Part shown: positions 12,046 through 20,285 of the stretch, piece after piece
Numbering within the stretch: position 1 is the stretch's first letter
Layout of the letters: each line of letters opens with the position of its first letter
DNA from: Paracoccaceae bacterium
Lineage (GTDB): Bacteria > Pseudomonadota > Alphaproteobacteria > Rhodobacterales > Rhodobacteraceae
Direction: 5' to 3'
NCBI GenBank assembly: GCA_014654775.1
Contig: JACVZW010000009.1
Coordinates: 44,165-108,164 of the forward strand
DNA length: 64,000 bases
Notes under the pieces: model-generated
What the model saw: the letters and a program-made list of their open reading frames with translations, nothing else
What the model was told of the DNA's origin: nothing
The model's database searches: none
Position numbers and translations under genes: made by a program

Positions 12046-12312
12046 ATGGATTTCGACGGGAATATCGAGCAGCTGCGGCTGGCTTATTGGAACATCCTTC
12101 TGGTGGCGGGGCCGGTGCTGACCGTGGCGCTGATCACCGGTCTGGTGATCGGGATCGTGCAGGCGGCCACGTCGATCAACGAGCAGACGCTGAGTTTCGT
12201 GCCGAAGCTGGCGATTTCGATGCTGACCATGGCGCTGGCGTCGGGGTTCATGCTGACGGTGATGACAGACTACTTCGCCTATGTCTTTGAGACGATCCGG
12301 GCGATCCGGTGA
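12046..12312 (+). CDS. fliQ: Flagellar export gate protein FliQ
   Basis: This 88-aa protein has two membrane segments (about 16-37 and 55-75), the normal FliQ layout. The conserved TSINEQTLSFVPK lies between them. FliQ packs around the FliP-FliR core of the type III export gate. It starts immediately after the fliP stop. Confidence 0.95.
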   Translation: MDFDGNIEQLRLAYWNILLVAGPVLTVALITGLVIGIVQAATSINEQTLSFVPKLAISMLTMALASGFMLTVMTDYFAYVFETIRAIR

Positions 12313-12322
12313 GGGCAGGCTG

Positions 12323-13132
12323 ATGGGAGGCGAGTTTCCGCTGCCGGGCATGGGGTTGGAGGCCATCACCGGATGGCTGACGCAATACCTGTTTGCCATG
12401 CTGCGGATCGGGGCCTTTCTTCTGGCTGCGCCGTTCTTCGGTGGGCGGTTCGTGTCGCTGCCGGTGCGGATCATGGTGACGGCGGTGCTGGCGCTGCCCG
12501 TGATGGCGGGGGGCGTGGAACTGCCGGAGCCGGACGAGTTGGCCGGGCTGTCGGCGGTGCCGATGATCCTGAACGAATTGGCGATCGGGCTGGTGGCGGG
12601 GCTGGTGCTGATGATCCTGTTCAGTGCGGCGGCACTGGCCGGGGACCGGATCGCGGCGACGGCGGGCCTTGGCTTTGCGGCGCAGTTCGACCCGGCGGCG
12701 GGCGGACAGACGCCTGTGGTGGCGCAGATCTTCGGTCTGTTCATGACGGTGATCTTCTTTTCCGTGGACGGGCACCTGACGGCGATCCGGATCGTTCTGG
12801 AAAGCTATCAGGCGATGCCGCCGGGCAGCCCGATCGGGTTCGACCGGATGGTTCTGGCGGGGATCACGGCGGGGTCGCAGATGTTCGCCTTGGGCTTTGC
12901 GGTGATGATGCCGGTGATCGCGGTGCTGCTGCTGTTGAACATCGCGGTGGGGGTGGTGACGCGGTCTGCGCCCACCCTGAACATCTTTTCCTTCGGCTTT
13001 CCGCTGACGATGACGGTGACGCTGCTGCTTTTGTACCTGACCGCGCCGGGGACGGCTGCGTCGATGGAAGAAGTGGTGTCGGCGGGGCTGTCGCTGATCA
13101 GCGACCTTCTGTTGGGAGGTGGCGGTGGCTGA
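12323..13132 (+). CDS. fliR: Flagellar export gate protein FliR
   Basis: FliR is the single-copy core subunit of the export gate. I chose the ATG at 12323, with a GAGGGCAGG ribosome-binding site. The upstream extension to 12281 overlaps fliQ and adds a non-conserved basic tail. The 269-aa product has multiple membrane segments and the motif GFAAQFDPAAGGQTPVVAQ typical of FliR. It overlaps the flhB start by 8 bp. Confidence 0.93.
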   Translation: MGGEFPLPGMGLEAITGWLTQYLFAMLRIGAFLLAAPFFGGRFVSLPVRIMVTAVLALPVMAGGVELPEPDELAGLSAVPMILNELAIGLVAGLVLMILFSAAALAGDRIAATAGLGFAAQFDPAAGGQTPVVAQIFGLFMTVIFFSVDGHLTAIRIVLESYQAMPPGSPIGFDRMVLAGITAGSQMFALGFAVMMPVIAVLLLLNIAVGVVTRSAPTLNIFSFGFPLTMTVTLLLLYLTAPGTAASMEEVVSAGLSLISDLLLGGGGG

Positions 13133-14282
13133 GGAGAATGACGGCGCCGAAAAGTCACATGAGCCGACGCAGAAACGGTTGGATGACGCGCGGGAGGAAG
13201 GGAATGTCCTGACCTCGAAAGAGGCGATGGTCTTTGCCGGGATGGCGGTGGGGACGGGCGTGCTGGCGCTGTCGGCGCAGGCGATGCCGTCGCTTCTGCC
13301 GCGGTTTCAGGCCTATTTCCTGCTGGAGCCGGGGGCCAATCTGGATCAGGTCGTTGCGGCGCGCATCTGGGGGGCCTTCTGGGATGTCCTTGGTCTGGCG
13401 GTACTGGTGGCGGTGCCGATCATCCTTGCGACCATCGCGGTGCAGGTGGCGATGGGCGGGATACACTGGTCGATCAAGGCGGCGGGGATGAAGTGGAGCC
13501 GGATCGACCCGCTGGCCGGGATCAAGCGGATGGTGTCTGCGACCGCGCTGGTGGAACTGGGCAAGGCCATCGCCAAGGTTCTGGTTCTGGGCGCGGTGGG
13601 CTGGGCGATGCTGTCAGCGGCGCTGCCCACGCTGGAGCGGCTGTGGCAGGTGGGGCCTGCGGCGGGGGCGGCGGTTCTGGGCGATGTCACGCTGCGGATG
13701 ATGTGGGGGATGGTGCTGGGCCTGGCCGCCGTGGCGGTGCTGGACGTGGCATGGCAGTGGTACAGCCTGCGGCAGAAGATGATGATGACGCTGCAGGAGG
13801 TGAAGGAAGAGAGCAAGGAGCAGAACGGGTCGCCCGAGGTGAAGGGCCGCATCCGGCAATTGCAGATGGAGGTGAGCCGTCAGGCGTCGCAACGGCGCAA
13901 GGCGCTGGACGACGTGCCGCGGGCGACGGCGATCGTGACCAACCCGACGCACTTTGCCGTGGCGATCCGCTATGTGCCGGGCGAGACGCGGGCGCCCATG
14001 ATCCTTGCCATGGGCAAGGGGCCGATGGCGTTGGAGATCATGGCGCGGGGGCGGAAGGCGGGGCTGGCGCCGGTGCAGATTCCGGTTCTGGCGCGGGCTT
14101 TGTATTTCACCGGGGATATCGGGATGGAGATCAACGAGCAGCTTTACGCCGCGGTGGCGGCGGTGCTGGCGCATGTCTACCGGCTGGATCGCGGCGAGGG
14201 ATCGGTCCTGCCCGATGTCGAGCTGCCGCCGGAGCTGCGGTTCAGCGAATTCGGGCAACCTGAAGCGCGGAGGTACGGATGA
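13125..14282 (+). CDS. flhB: Flagellar export switch protein FlhB
   Basis: FlhB controls export substrate specificity by self-cleavage. This 385-aa protein has a hydrophilic N-terminus (EKSHEPTQKRLDDAREEG), four membrane segments, and a cytoplasmic domain with the autocleavage motif NPTH at residues 273-276. The GTG at 13125 is preferred because GGAGG lies 6 bp upstream; a GTG at 13119 is also possible. It overlaps fliR upstream and the next small ORF (ATGA) downstream. Confidence 0.95.
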   Translation: MAEENDGAEKSHEPTQKRLDDAREEGNVLTSKEAMVFAGMAVGTGVLALSAQAMPSLLPRFQAYFLLEPGANLDQVVAARIWGAFWDVLGLAVLVAVPIILATIAVQVAMGGIHWSIKAAGMKWSRIDPLAGIKRMVSATALVELGKAIAKVLVLGAVGWAMLSAALPTLERLWQVGPAAGAAVLGDVTLRMMWGMVLGLAAVAVLDVAWQWYSLRQKMMMTLQEVKEESKEQNGSPEVKGRIRQLQMEVSRQASQRRKALDDVPRATAIVTNPTHFAVAIRYVPGETRAPMILAMGKGPMALEIMARGRKAGLAPVQIPVLARALYFTGDIGMEINEQLYAAVAAVLAHVYRLDRGEGSVLPDVELPPELRFSEFGQPEARRYG

Positions 14283-14479
14283 CAAAACGCAGTCAGAAGA
14301 CGACCGGCGAGATGATCTCGACAGTGGTTTTTGCCGGGGGTGGGTTCCTGCTGCTGACCGGGGCGCTGGACTCGGAACTTTCGGTGGGAGAGCGGCTGGC
14401 GTTGGGCTTTGGCGCGCTGGGCGGGTTCGCGGCGGCGGCGCGGTTCCTGATCGCCGCGCTCTGGGCGCGGTGGCGGTGA
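14279..14479 (+). CDS. Small membrane protein downstream of flhB
   Basis: This 66-aa unrecognised protein starts within the flhB stop codon (ATGA overlap), so it is probably translated together with flhB. It has two hydrophobic stretches (about 10-27 and 40-60) joined by a short acidic loop, and a basic C-terminus. Its membrane character and coupling to flhB hint at a role in export-gate or motor assembly. No family match can be named from sequence alone. Confidence 0.65.
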   Translation: MTKRSQKTTGEMISTVVFAGGGFLLLTGALDSELSVGERLALGFGALGGFAAAARFLIAALWARWR

Positions 14480-14525
14480 TGGCACGGGATTTGCTGTGAT
14501 GCCGGGTAGAAAGAAGGAGAAGGCC

Positions 14526-15308
14526 ATGAGCAGCGCCGAGACGCCGGAAATGGATGCCGGGAAAGCCGCGGGCGACAGCACGACGGAGGGCATCCGCCGC
14601 GCGCTGGAAGCTGCCGAGGTGGCCAATGATGCGGCGCAGGAACTGGCCGATCTGTCTGCGGCGCATCGGGCCTTTGCCGAGGCCGTGATCAAGGGCCAGC
14701 GGCGGAACACGATGATCGCTTCGGGTGCGCTGGCCGGGTCCGTGCTTGCGGTGGCGCTGGGCGGTCTGGTTTATTTCCGGTCGGTCGCCGATCTGCGGAT
14801 GGCGGCCGGGGTTCAGGCCGAGGCAGCGACCTTGCTGGTCGAAGAGGTCAAGCAGATCGATGGCATCAGTGACCGGGTGGATGAGCAGCAGGCGAAGATG
14901 GCGACCGACCTACTGGCTTTGCTGGAGCAGGTGAAGGACGAGATCCGCATCGCCGGGGCTGCGGCCTTGACGCCGCCCGAGCCCGAGCCTGAACCCGAAG
15001 CTGAAACGATTGACCCGCAGCTCGTCGAGGCGATCCGGGCCGGGGTCAAGACGGACCTCGACGCGGCGAAGGCCGAACTGATGACCGCGCTGGCCGAGAT
15101 CGAAGTGAATGGCGGGGGCGCGCATATGGATGAGTTGAAGGCGCTGATCACCGAACTGTCGCTGCGCGGCGCGGTGGGGGGGCGCGAGACGGCATCCCCA
15201 GCACAAGCCGCGCCTGCCCCGGCAGCGCAGAGCAGCCCCGCGCGCAACACGCGCCCCGCGACGCGGGCGGCGAGCGCGCCGGAGCCCAATCCCTTTGTCT
15301 ATCCGTGA
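14526..15308 (+). CDS. Bitopic membrane protein in Fla1 cluster, candidate MotF
   Basis: This 260-aa protein has a helical, Ala/Glu-rich cytoplasmic N-terminus, one membrane segment at about 63-84, and a probably periplasmic part. That part contains a coiled-coil-like stretch (about 95-145), a PEPEPEPE linker and a Pro/Ala-rich C-terminus. The ATG at 14526 has an AAGGAG site. R. sphaeroides Fla1 rotation needs MotF, a single-pass membrane protein encoded in the flagellar cluster. Topology and position make this gene the better candidate than its neighbour, but I cannot align them here. Confidence 0.55.
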   Translation: MSSAETPEMDAGKAAGDSTTEGIRRALEAAEVANDAAQELADLSAAHRAFAEAVIKGQRRNTMIASGALAGSVLAVALGGLVYFRSVADLRMAAGVQAEAATLLVEEVKQIDGISDRVDEQQAKMATDLLALLEQVKDEIRIAGAAALTPPEPEPEPEAETIDPQLVEAIRAGVKTDLDAAKAELMTALAEIEVNGGGAHMDELKALITELSLRGAVGGRETASPAQAAPAPAAQSSPARNTRPATRAASAPEPNPFVYP

Positions 15309-15315
15309 CCGTGGC

Positions 15316-16044
15316 ATGAGCCAGCTGGGCGGAGAGGGCGGCATCGGTGCGGAGGACACCCCCTCTGGCCCCATGACCTTGCGGTTGCGCGAAGGATCGG
15401 TCACGCCCGAAGGGCGGCGGCTGGGTCTGACCGGGGGCGAGGTGCTGCTGTCGGTGAATGGCGTGGCCTTTTCCGGCAAGGAGACGGCGCTGACGGCGCG
15501 GCTTCTGATGCGGCGCGGCAAGCCTTTAGCGCTTACTTTTGCGCGCGAGGGGGGCAACCTTCTGGTGCTGGCCGGGACGACGGCGCTGGGCCGTTGGGAG
15601 CAGGTGCCCGCCCTGCCCGCCCCCGAGGGCGACGCGGCGCGGATCGATCCGGACGGGTTGCGGAATTACGAGGTGATGCGGGGCCCGGAAGGGCAGTATG
15701 ACCTTTATGCGGTGGAGGTGCCGCTGCTTGCAGTGATAGCACCGCCGCTGTGGCTGTTTCAAATGCGGGTCTGGGCACCGGGCGCGACGCTGTTGGTGGG
15801 GATGGTGGCTGCGGCTATCGTGACGCCGTGGCTGTCTTTGGTGGTGTGGCTGTCGGCGGCGCTGTGGATACGCGGGGCAGCGCTGCCGCTGCTGCGGATG
15901 GATCGGCAGGCGCGGGGTCTGGGCTTTGCGGGCGTGGTTGCAGCGCGCAGCGAGACGGAGGCGCATAAGCTGCATCAGGCGCGGTCGCCGGGGGATCGCT
16001 GCATCTTTTGCCCCGAAAAGGAGACGGCGGCGCAGGCGGCGTGA
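15316..16044 (+). CDS. Membrane protein with PDZ-like N-terminus and CxxC tail
   Basis: This is an unrecognised 242-aa protein. Residues about 20-75 resemble a PDZ-like fold (GEVLLSVNGVAFSGKE, then KPLALTFAREG). Two adjacent hydrophobic segments follow at about 130-190. The C-terminal tail contains RCIFCPEKE, a CxxC that could bind metal or redox partners. The ATG at 15316 lies 7 bp after the previous stop but has no clear ribosome-binding site. It is the last gene before a bidirectional terminator, so it belongs to the flhB unit. It could alternatively be the MotF counterpart. Confidence 0.6.
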   Translation: MSQLGGEGGIGAEDTPSGPMTLRLREGSVTPEGRRLGLTGGEVLLSVNGVAFSGKETALTARLLMRRGKPLALTFAREGGNLLVLAGTTALGRWEQVPALPAPEGDAARIDPDGLRNYEVMRGPEGQYDLYAVEVPLLAVIAPPLWLFQMRVWAPGATLLVGMVAAAIVTPWLSLVVWLSAALWIRGAALPLLRMDRQARGLGFAGVVAARSETEAHKLHQARSPGDRCIFCPEKETAAQAA

Positions 16045-16072
16045 TCTGCCCGTGAAAGGTTTGAAGGGAAAG

Positions 16073-16102
16073 AAAAAGGCCCGCCGATCCGGCGGGCCTT
16101 TT
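16073..16102. terminator. Bidirectional terminator between the flhB unit and rpoN
   Basis: AAGGCCCGCC and GGCGGGCCTT form a perfect GC-rich stem flanked by A-runs on the left and T-runs on the right. It lies between convergent genes (plus-strand gene ending 16044, rpoN ending 16165), so it can serve both strands. Confidence 0.85.
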
Positions 16103-16164
16103 CCCTTGTGTGAGCAGGAGACCTGACTTCCCTTTCACAAGTGCATGTATCTTTCGCAGTCCCC

Positions 16165-17523
16165 TCAGGCCTTTGTCATCAGGGCGCGGCGGCGACGATC
16201 GACCGAAGAGGCGATGCGGAGCTGATCGCGATACTTTGCTACCGTCCGTCTTGCAAGCTGGATGCCATCTTCCTGCCCGATGATGCGAGCGATGATATCA
16301 TCCGACAGCGGCTCTTCGGGGTTTTCGGCGGCGATGAGTTTCTGGATGCGGTGGCGGATGGCGGCGGCGGAACCCGCCTCGCCCCCTTCGCCTTCGCGCG
16401 CGGCGAGGGCGGCGCTGAAAAAGCTTTTCAGCGGGAAGGTGCCCTGCGGCGTGGCGATGAGGATGCCCGAGCAGACGCGCGAGACGGTGCTTTCATGCAC
16501 GCCGATCGCTTCGGCCACTTCGCGCAGGACCATGGGGCGCAGGCGCGAGGGGCCGTGTTCAAGGAATTCGGTCTGGCGGCGGACGACTTCGGCGCCGACC
16601 TTGAGCGTGGTCTGGTTGCGGTGTTCCACCGCACGCGAGAGCCAGCGGGCGACCGAGAGGCGTTCGGAGACATAGGCGTTCGCCTCGATCCGGCGCAGGG
16701 CAAGGCGGCGGGCCTCGCCTTCGCGGACGACAACGGTGGGCAGGGTGGAACGGTTGAGATCCACGCGCCAGCCATCGGCCCCACGGGTGATGAGCAGATC
16801 GGGCGCGCGCTGCGGCATGGGCGTGCCGTCGAAGGTGGCGCCCGGCTTGGGGTTGAAGCTGCGGAGTTGGCGCAGCATCGCCTTGAGGTCTTCCATCGCC
16901 ACGTTGCAGACGCGGCAGAGGCCGCGCAGATCGGCCTGCGCCAGCATCGGCAGATTGTCGAGGAGCGCCGAGAAGGCCGGGGTGAGCAGGCCCTGATCGC
17001 GCGCCTGAAGGCGCAGACATTCCGCGAGGTTGCGGGCGAAGAGACCTGCGGGTTCCACCTGCTGCAGGCGGCGGAGGAGCGCCTCCACTTCTGCCTCGTC
17101 GACGAAGAGGCGGTCGGCGATGGCGGAAAGCGGCTGGCCGAGCCAGCCCGACGGTTCCAGCGCATCGAGGAAGGCTTCGGCCATCATCGACTCGCGCTGG
17201 GAGAGGCCGAGGCGGGCCACTTCGGCGGCGGCATGGGCATAAAGCGAGGGGCCGGGATCGGCAGCGAGTTGGCCGAGCTTGTCCCAGTCATCATCGCCGG
17301 AGCGGAGTTGGGACGGAAGGGTCAGATCGCGGGCGGGGCCAGCGGCGCGCGGCTGGGCCGAGCGGGCCCCGAGATCGAGGAAGGGATTTTCCTCGGCCTG
17401 GGATTCGATGAAGGAGGCAAGGTCGGTATTGCCCATCTGCAGAAGCTGGATCGCCTGCTGAAGCTGGGCGGTCACGACGACCGATTGGCGCTGGCCGATG
17501 GACTGGGACGTGAAAAGCTGCAT
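16165..17523 (-). CDS. rpoN: RNA polymerase sigma-54 factor RpoN (flagellar copy)
   Basis: This 452-aa sigma-54 has the N-terminal Gln/Leu-rich activator region (TAQLQQAIQLLQMGN, about 18-32), a core-binding domain, an HTH region with GVHESTVSR, and the RpoN box ARRTVAKYRDQL at about 424-435. I chose the ATG at 17523, which has an AAGGAG site; the ORF extends further without support. R. sphaeroides has several rpoN copies, and the one in the flagellar cluster (RpoN2) serves flagellar promoters. Its position here suggests the same specialisation. Confidence 0.92.
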   Translation of the reverse strand: MQLFTSQSIGQRQSVVVTAQLQQAIQLLQMGNTDLASFIESQAEENPFLDLGARSAQPRAAGPARDLTLPSQLRSGDDDWDKLGQLAADPGPSLYAHAAAEVARLGLSQRESMMAEAFLDALEPSGWLGQPLSAIADRLFVDEAEVEALLRRLQQVEPAGLFARNLAECLRLQARDQGLLTPAFSALLDNLPMLAQADLRGLCRVCNVAMEDLKAMLRQLRSFNPKPGATFDGTPMPQRAPDLLITRGADGWRVDLNRSTLPTVVVREGEARRLALRRIEANAYVSERLSVARWLSRAVEHRNQTTLKVGAEVVRRQTEFLEHGPSRLRPMVLREVAEAIGVHESTVSRVCSGILIATPQGTFPLKSFFSAALAAREGEGGEAGSAAAIRHRIQKLIAAENPEEPLSDDIIARIIGQEDGIQLARRTVAKYRDQLRIASSVDRRRRALMTKA

Positions 17524-17650
17524 GGTGAATGTCTCCTTGCAGCGAACATGACTCACGGCCTGCCGGGCGCGCAAAATTTTGGTTTGACACCCCTAAAATG
17601 GCCGATGGCAGGGTATTTCAGCGGGTTTCCGACGCATTAACCAATTGAAA

Positions 17651-19523: not shown

Positions 19524-20285
19524 ATGGATATCGCTACCCTTGTCGGCCTTGTGGGCGCGGTCGTCATGATCATCGGGTCGATGATGTATGCGGGCGGCGT
19601 GTCACCTTTTGTCGACGTGGCGTCCGTCGTGATCGTGTTCGGCGGGACCTTCTTCATCGTGATGATGAAGATGCCGATGGGCGTATTCATCGGGCATTTC
19701 AAGGCGATGGGAAAAGCCTTCAAGCCATCCACCTTCGACATGCCTGCCGTGGTGGAGCGGATGGTCGAGTTGGCCACCGTGGCGCGCAAGGACGGGATGA
19801 TGGCGCTGGAAGGCCAGCAGGTGCCCGACCGGTTTTTTGAGCGTGGCTTGCAGATGCTGATCGACGGGGCGGATGAGGCGAAGCTTGTCAAGGCGATGAA
19901 ACAAGAGATCAAGGCGATGAAGTCGCGCCATGAGGGCAACCAAAGCGCGCTGAAGGCTTGGATCGATTATGGCCCCGCGATGGGCATGGTGGGGACGCTG
20001 ATCGGTCTGGTGCTGATGCTGGGCAACATGTCGGACCCGAAATCCATCGGTCCGGCCATGGCTGTGGCGCTGCTGACGACGCTTTATGGCGCGCTGATCG
20101 CCAACGTGATCTACGGGCCGATCCTGTCGAAACTGGAAGGCTATACCGCGGATGAAGTGGCCTATCGGGAATTGGTGATCGAAGGGCTGCGCGGGATCGC
20201 GCGCGGGGACAGCCCGCGCAACGTGCAGGAACAGATGGTGACGGTGCTGCCCCCGAAGGAGCAGGCGCGGCTGATGGCCGCCTGA
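19524..20285 (+). CDS. motA: Flagellar motor stator protein MotA
   Basis: MotA with MotB forms the stator that converts ion flow into rotation. The 253-aa protein has the MotA/PomA layout: two N-terminal membrane segments (about 4-24 and 31-50), a cytoplasmic loop, and two C-terminal segments beginning WIDYGPAMGMVGTLIG and PAMAVALLTTLYGALI. The conserved prolines are present. motB starts 10 bp later. Confidence 0.93.
   Translation: MDIATLVGLVGAVVMIIGSMMYAGGVSPFVDVASVVIVFGGTFFIVMMKMPMGVFIGHFKAMGKAFKPSTFDMPAVVERMVELATVARKDGMMALEGQQVPDRFFERGLQMLIDGADEAKLVKAMKQEIKAMKSRHEGNQSALKAWIDYGPAMGMVGTLIGLVLMLGNMSDPKSIGPAMAVALLTTLYGALIANVIYGPILSKLEGYTADEVAYRELVIEGLRGIARGDSPRNVQEQMVTVLPPKEQARLMAA

Follow-up and report, generated by a model that had tools for sequence, protein, structure and literature searches.

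A candidate stator-activation pair, MotF and a membrane-anchored PDZ protein, behind a Fla1-type flhB gene in a Paracoccaceae bacterium

Rotation of the Fla1 flagellum of Rhodobacter sphaeroides requires MotF, a 24-kDa protein with a transmembrane segment at residues 54–74 and a large periplasmic C-terminal part (PMC7277832). Tracked as a fusion to green fluorescent protein (GFP-MotF), it depends for its localisation on MotA/B, FliL and FlgT, the last of which recruits it; together with FliL it acts on the plug of MotB, and loss of motF is suppressed by changes in that plug (PMC7277832). Here we describe the genes behind a Fla1-type flhB in a 64,000-nucleotide stretch of DNA (the window) from contig JACVZW010000009.1 of the Paracoccaceae bacterium assembly GCA_014654775.1 (positions 44,165 to 108,164, forward strand). 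An orthologue of MotF is found there, between a 66-amino-acid membrane protein that we call SM66 and a 242-amino-acid protein with a PDZ domain. We think it fairly probable that these genes make up two functional units, with motF and the PDZ gene acting as a stator-activation pair in which the PDZ partner is cytosolic, and SM66 acting as an accessory of the FlhB gate. The genes lie as follows:

13119..14282, plus strand: flhB, export-gate switch protein (Pfam PF01312, E = 1.2e-96)
14279..14479, plus strand: SM66, 66-amino-acid two-helix membrane protein, with an ATGA start/stop overlap with flhB
14526..15308, plus strand: motF orthologue, 260 amino acids, bitopic, 42–43% identical to R. sphaeroides MotF
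15316..16044, plus strand: PDZ and DUF2628-like membrane protein, 242 amino acids, the constant neighbour of motF

Several other described systems share a name or a role with parts of this locus. A protein called MotF is also needed for motor function in Sinorhizobium meliloti and Agrobacterium fabrum, but it is a paralogue of FliL (PMC9812332), and the window has a fliL-like gene of its own; we rejected the equation of the two because the rhizobial protein is an unrelated FliL paralogue. The matches listed for 69 MotF family members include no FliL family, and the window protein has none at all. The second flagellum of Cereibacter sphaeroides has rotation accessories encoded in flagellar clusters, MotE (COG3334) and MotK (with an AMIN-like domain), but these are secreted, periplasmic proteins and are set apart from the proteins treated here by their descriptions (PMC10954123). 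A literature search for PDZ proteins of flagellar motors found one only, PflC of Campylobacter jejuni, a periplasmic, HtrA-derived, lattice-forming component of the medial disk with a protease-like fold and 2 PDZ domains (PMC12222027). The window PDZ protein differs from it in being smaller, membrane-anchored and probably cytosolic.

The identity of the 260-amino-acid protein was established against a genome, G051, that we take to be R. sphaeroides because its CheY6 is a 100% match over 133 residues to PDB entry 3kyj, the R. sphaeroides CheY6. At the Fla1 locus of G051 (L017), flhB is followed by a 239-amino-acid, 24.8-kDa protein whose hydrophobic segment peaks at residues 54–72 and which a MotF profile search retrieves with E = 1.1e-83. 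The window protein (260 amino acids, 26.8 kDa) is about 20 residues longer, has a long C-terminal part and, by hydropathy, a single transmembrane segment at 62–87, equivalent in position to the published 54–74, and is 42% (large alignment) or 43% (small alignment) identical to the G051 protein. In the R. sphaeroides locus numbering RSP_0066 is flhB and RSP_0067 is an upregulated hypothetical gene of the motility cluster (PMC9779115). The order flhB, motF, PDZ gene, rpoN2 is found both in G051 and in C. azotoformans (L073), and that of the window is the same with the 66-amino-acid gene inserted after flhB. We assume that RSP_0067 is motF. Because locus position, size, transmembrane position and an identity of 42–43% all agree with the G051 locus, the protein is, as judged by sequence comparison, an orthologue of R. 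sphaeroides MotF, which the earlier note on this DNA had suspected of one of the three genes.

The pairing of motF with the PDZ gene was followed through 298 genomes of the window's family, nearly all of different genera. A clear MotF is encoded in 21 of these, a full-length PDZ protein in 20 and SM66 in 20; MotF and the PDZ protein occur together in 20 genomes, adjacent each time, MotF occurs alone in 1 and the PDZ protein alone in none (Fisher 3e-30, uncorrected for kinship). The remaining matches to the PDZ profile, which are short and nearly all to proteins of more than 400 amino acids, were excluded from this count. A scan of named genomes by Fla1-type FlhB alignment added 80 loci. In all loci together motF is found in 84, some of them near-duplicates, the PDZ gene in 82 and SM66 in 77, and the PDZ gene immediately follows motF in 82 of the 84, R. 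sphaeroides included. At L085 the contig ends just after motF and the genome, a metagenome-assembled genome, lacks a full-length PDZ protein; at L067 (genome G278) rpoN2 follows motF directly, and a genome-wide search gave no full-length PDZ protein. The order flhB, SM66, motF, PDZ gene holds in most neighbourhoods, across about 20 of the family's genera as well as in many other loci. The earlier note had named a lack of conservation in other Fla1-type clusters as what would refute its proposal, and this is not what was found: the three genes are kept there.

The PDZ protein was modelled with AlphaFold from an alignment with 66 homologues (predicted local distance difference test, pLDDT, 92.6; predicted template modelling score, pTM, 0.85). 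The model and family profiles divide it into the following parts:

15373..15609, plus strand: PDZ domain, residues 20–98, of the DegP PDZ2/RseP kind
15661..15984, plus strand: DUF2628-like domain, residues 116–223, with strands and a helix to one side of a transmembrane hairpin (Pfam matches in relatives, secondary structure of the model)
16000..16011, plus strand: CxxC (CIFC) in the tail, residues 229–232, lineage-specific

The family profile matches DegP PDZ2 (E = 7.6e-13) and the RseP PDZ domains, Foldseek returned RseP PDZ2 with a probability of 1.00, though without any E-value below 0.001, and PDZ_6 is matched in 44 of 66 family members. In the second domain, strands stand before and after a helical transmembrane hairpin; DUF2628 (PF10947) is matched by 32 of the 66 members at E ≤ 0.1 (best 5e-6), the window protein itself scoring 14.1 bits, below the 23-bit cut-off. 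By the model, the hairpin places both ends of the protein on one side of the membrane. Since there is no apparent signal peptide, the tail is basic in many members and both hairpin ends lie on the same side, the protein is predicted to sit on the cytoplasmic face, and probably does so. The CxxC tail picked out in the earlier note is indeed present in the window protein, but among 8 aligned sequences reaching to distant members it recurs only in the two closest relatives (L016 and L069), and as it is absent beyond these we rejected it as a metal or redox site. PDZ and DUF2628-like parts fused in one protein of a flagellar operon look undescribed: a literature search found no description of a flagellar PDZ-DUF2628 protein, and among the papers listed for DUF2628 in combination with PDZ or flagella, none named DUF2628.

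The resemblance to DegP and RseP raises the question of whether the PDZ-DUF2628 protein could be a quality-control or assembly factor for MotF, an HtrA- or RseP-like adaptor, and not a structural component of the motor that partners it. Its nearest folds are PDZ domains of proteases and it is almost always paired with a single candidate client. However, unlike DegP and RseP it has no protease part: beyond the PDZ stretch, Pfam and NCBIfam searches that included its relatives matched no protease family. Its tight linkage to motF also fits a structural partner. We regard such an adaptor as unlikely, if the least unlikely of the alternatives, and retain the stator-activation pair.

AlphaFold models MotF itself as a single helix that spans residues 11–148 and passes through the membrane, followed by shorter helices and a low-confidence tail, and comparison with solved structures gave generic coiled coils only. 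Three of its features stand out in the alignment and hydropathy profile:

14580..14642, plus strand: N-terminal cytosolic helix, residues 19–39, the most conserved part of MotF (up to 4.3 bits of column information, 69 sequences)
14709..14780, plus strand: transmembrane segment, about residues 62–85, at the hydropathy peak
15288..15305, plus strand: C-terminal motif NPFVYP-COOH, the last two residues of which, [FY]P, are near-invariant

The C-terminal end is [FY]P in 82 of 85 MotF sequences, and because this end is conserved while the rest of the tail varies freely, the alignment suggests a docking motif. As PDZ domains bind C-terminal peptides and a PDZ gene stands next to motF in 82 of 84 loci, the two proteins might be thought to meet directly on one side of the membrane, with the [FY]P-COOH end of MotF (preceded by a variable, low-confidence tail) serving as the ligand. 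A terminal proline is nevertheless unusual in PDZ ligands, and the PDZ domain of this family resembles the DegP PDZ2 and RseP types. The C-terminus of R. sphaeroides MotF is, moreover, periplasmic (PMC7277832), which would put it across the membrane from a PDZ domain predicted to be cytoplasmic. We therefore hold this contact to be improbable and prefer a pair in which the PDZ protein meets some other, cytosolic part.

Two termini of neighbouring motor proteins were noted alongside. In almost all genomes the last two residues of MotA of this flagellar type (19524-20285 in the window) are Ala-Ala, and the C-terminus of FliL is a conserved HFTSFVLQ. The Ala-Ala end was considered as a PDZ ligand and set aside as non-discriminating, since it is also present in a genome that has no PDZ gene; it is a lead at most. 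The MotA of G278 is more divergent, at 50% identity to that of the window versus 64–72% in the other family members compared, and this genome, with its motF but no PDZ gene, offers a helpful contrast provided by nature.

The earlier note had treated the three genes as one export-gate set, and on this point the linkage data speak otherwise. In 4 genomes motF lies away from flhB (L059; L020 with L222; L223 with L082; L224 with L077); in each the PDZ gene is still behind motF and SM66 still behind flhB. Thalassovita autumnalis (L086) and the genome G077 have flhB and SM66 but neither MotF nor a full-length PDZ protein, and Cereibacter and Hyphomicrobiales have motF and the PDZ gene without SM66. 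Mirror-tree partial correlations point the same way, at 0.41 for MotF and the PDZ protein, 0.10 for MotF and SM66, and 0.36 for SM66 and FliR. Because linkage and presence/absence split them in this way, we treat motF with the PDZ gene (stator) and flhB with SM66 (gate) as separate units. All three genes do stand directly behind flhB in most clusters, as they would if each assisted the folding or gating of FlhB/FliPQR and the rotation phenotype of MotF were secondary; but in several genomes motF and its PDZ neighbour have parted from flhB and SM66 has not, and the suppression of motF loss by MotB plug changes and the dependence of MotF localisation on MotA/B, FliL and FlgT (PMC7277832) fit a common gate role poorly. 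We give that reading very little credence beside the division into a stator pair and a gate accessory.

SM66 looks undescribed. An orthologue with 86% identity has two hydrophobic segments, at about residues 9–31 and 40–63, the protein belongs to no Pfam or NCBIfam family, and neither FliO nor FliQ is among the matches of 56 members. Going by linkage and presence/absence, an accessory role at the FlhB export gate is the best reading of its hairpin.

The MotF family occurs well outside the Rhodobacteraceae, in SAR116 and Hyphomicrobiales, and so more widely than in its published range. The FlhB nearest to that of the window is from Tabrizicola (89% identity), and further carriers in the scan include Cereibacter (Luteovulum) azotoformans, Donghicola, Thalassococcus, Nereida, many SAR116 and several Hyphomicrobiales. 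Even sampling of the class brought in eight more genomes that encode the PDZ protein, spread over four families, 7 of them also with MotF; the eighth, G423, yielded no MotF, and its contig breaks off at the PDZ gene. None of motF, the PDZ gene and SM66 is present at Sphingomonas-type or gammaproteobacterial FlhB loci, and a whole-genome search of six such genomes turned up neither MotF nor a full-length PDZ protein.

A plasmid of Octadecabacter arcticus (NC_020909.1, locus L234) carries the whole block of flhB, SM66, a small gene that we call Cys4, motF and the PDZ gene. Its MotF and PDZ protein are both 'hypothetical protein' in this, the one RefSeq plasmid record found, and the open reading frames for SM66 and Cys4 are present in the sequence and missing from the listed annotation. 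In a survey of Rhodobacterales the R. sphaeroides Fla1 cluster (RSP_0032 to RSP_0083) is named fla3-type, and clusters of this type are reported to move horizontally, one of them being non-chromosomal (PMC12363192); the plasmid cluster may be that one.

The three reading frames behave as genes under purifying selection, since their ratios of nonsynonymous to synonymous substitution (dN/dS) are 0.17–0.33 and similar to that of flhB; against two close relatives we obtained 0.22 and 0.33 for SM66, 0.18 and 0.29 for MotF, and 0.18 and 0.21 for the PDZ protein, with 0.18 for flhB in the same comparison. That the PDZ gene and SM66 are passengers of a horizontally moved cluster with no part in motility, as the reported mobility of fla3-type clusters (PMC12363192) and the lack of a known phenotype might suggest, is scarcely credible given this selection, their presence across several orders and their retention as pairs after splits. 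The window's three proteins, searched singly against Pfam and NCBIfam, gave nothing above the cut-off and no family covering any of them whole, and together with the literature searches this bears out the earlier note's impression that the two besides MotF are undescribed.

Several points weigh against a division into a stator pair and a gate accessory. The mirror-tree signal is not specific, the correlation of MotF with FlhB being higher (0.52) than with the PDZ protein and that of SM66 with FlhB being zero. The PDZ partner is not absolutely required, because G278 retains MotF without it. Linkage within one operon can persist without contact, the topology of the PDZ protein is a prediction, and we found no record of an interaction or a phenotype for the PDZ protein or SM66.

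The remaining features of the locus are these:

12046-12312: FliQ-like open reading frame, separate from SM66
16069..16107, plus strand: intrinsic terminator-like hairpin (inverted repeat) between the operon and the convergent rpoN2
16165..17574, minus strand: rpoN2-type sigma-54 gene, convergent (Pfam Sigma54_DBD 2.7e-58, CBD 2.4e-39)

The earlier note's outline, with a 66-amino-acid gene coupled to flhB, a 260-amino-acid bitopic protein and a 242-amino-acid PDZ-like protein ahead of a terminator, was correct in coordinates and sizes, in keeping with the ATGA overlap and a hairpin with 18-nucleotide arms; its interpretation as a whole is partly supported. GGAGG stands just 5' of the SM66 start. 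The arms of the hairpin (16069-16086 and 16090-16107) are 89% complementary around a 3-nucleotide loop and are followed by TTTTCCC. An rpoN2 gene also neighbours the R. sphaeroides (L017) and C. azotoformans (L073) loci. The Fla1-type FlhB of the window is 27% identical to the second flagellar FlhB of the same genome, which has in addition a third FlhB-family fragment at the start of contig C3 (L025:3-536) that looks injectisome-like (SctU), not flagellar.

Two further genes occur near motF in relatives. Cys4 encodes a protein of 60–90 amino acids with four invariant cysteines (C-x2-C, C, C); in marine Rhodobacterales and SAR116 the gene separates SM66 from motF, and in Hyphomicrobiales it precedes motF (L098:7375-7575, L064:6882-7091 on the minus strand, and more than 60 other loci). 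It matches no Pfam or NCBIfam family, and relatives occur in 76 of 249 genomes of the phylum and are widespread outside alphaproteobacteria. We rejected it as a core member because the window genome lacks it and the five neighbourhoods examined were mostly non-flagellar. In several genera an opposite-strand gene of about 190–205 amino acids lies between SM66 and motF or just before motF (L007:698-1315, L008:738-1319 and L009:759-1328, minus strand), and the L009 protein has no Pfam or NCBIfam match.

In the mechanism that we propose for the two units, MotF would form a long helical rod, with its conserved N-terminal helix in the cytosol, one crossing of the membrane, and a periplasmic coiled coil ending in a Pro/Ala-rich tail with [FY]P. 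By orthology with the R. sphaeroides protein, its recruitment to the motor would run through the FlgT H-ring, and together with FliL it would help to reshape the MotB plug and thereby open the proton channel. The PDZ-DUF2628 protein may position MotF, and through MotF the stator, from the cytoplasmic side, by contact with the conserved N-terminal helix of MotF or with some cytosolic C-terminus, and its loss would then leave cells that make filaments but do not rotate them. SM66 would be co-translated with FlhB, with a putative role at the gate, and would be dispensable for MotF function. More tentatively, and with somewhat less than even confidence, we suggest a two-protein device in which the PDZ protein, cytosolic and anchored in the membrane, joins with the MotF rod to tie the stator's cytoplasmic face to the H-ring/FliL layer in the periplasm, coupling release of the MotB plug to the stator's arrival at the rotor, with the PDZ partner having been overlooked in R. 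sphaeroides.

The molecular role of MotF is a named open question in a review of the R. sphaeroides flagellum (PMC7277832), and, with the conserved PDZ gene beside motF in that organism, a single-gene deletion could contribute to the answer. In MotF itself, the near-invariant [FY]P terminus likewise offers a short motif to mutate. Its spread through marine Rhodobacterales, SAR116 and Hyphomicrobiales would make MotF a broader alphaproteobacterial stator factor and not a local oddity.

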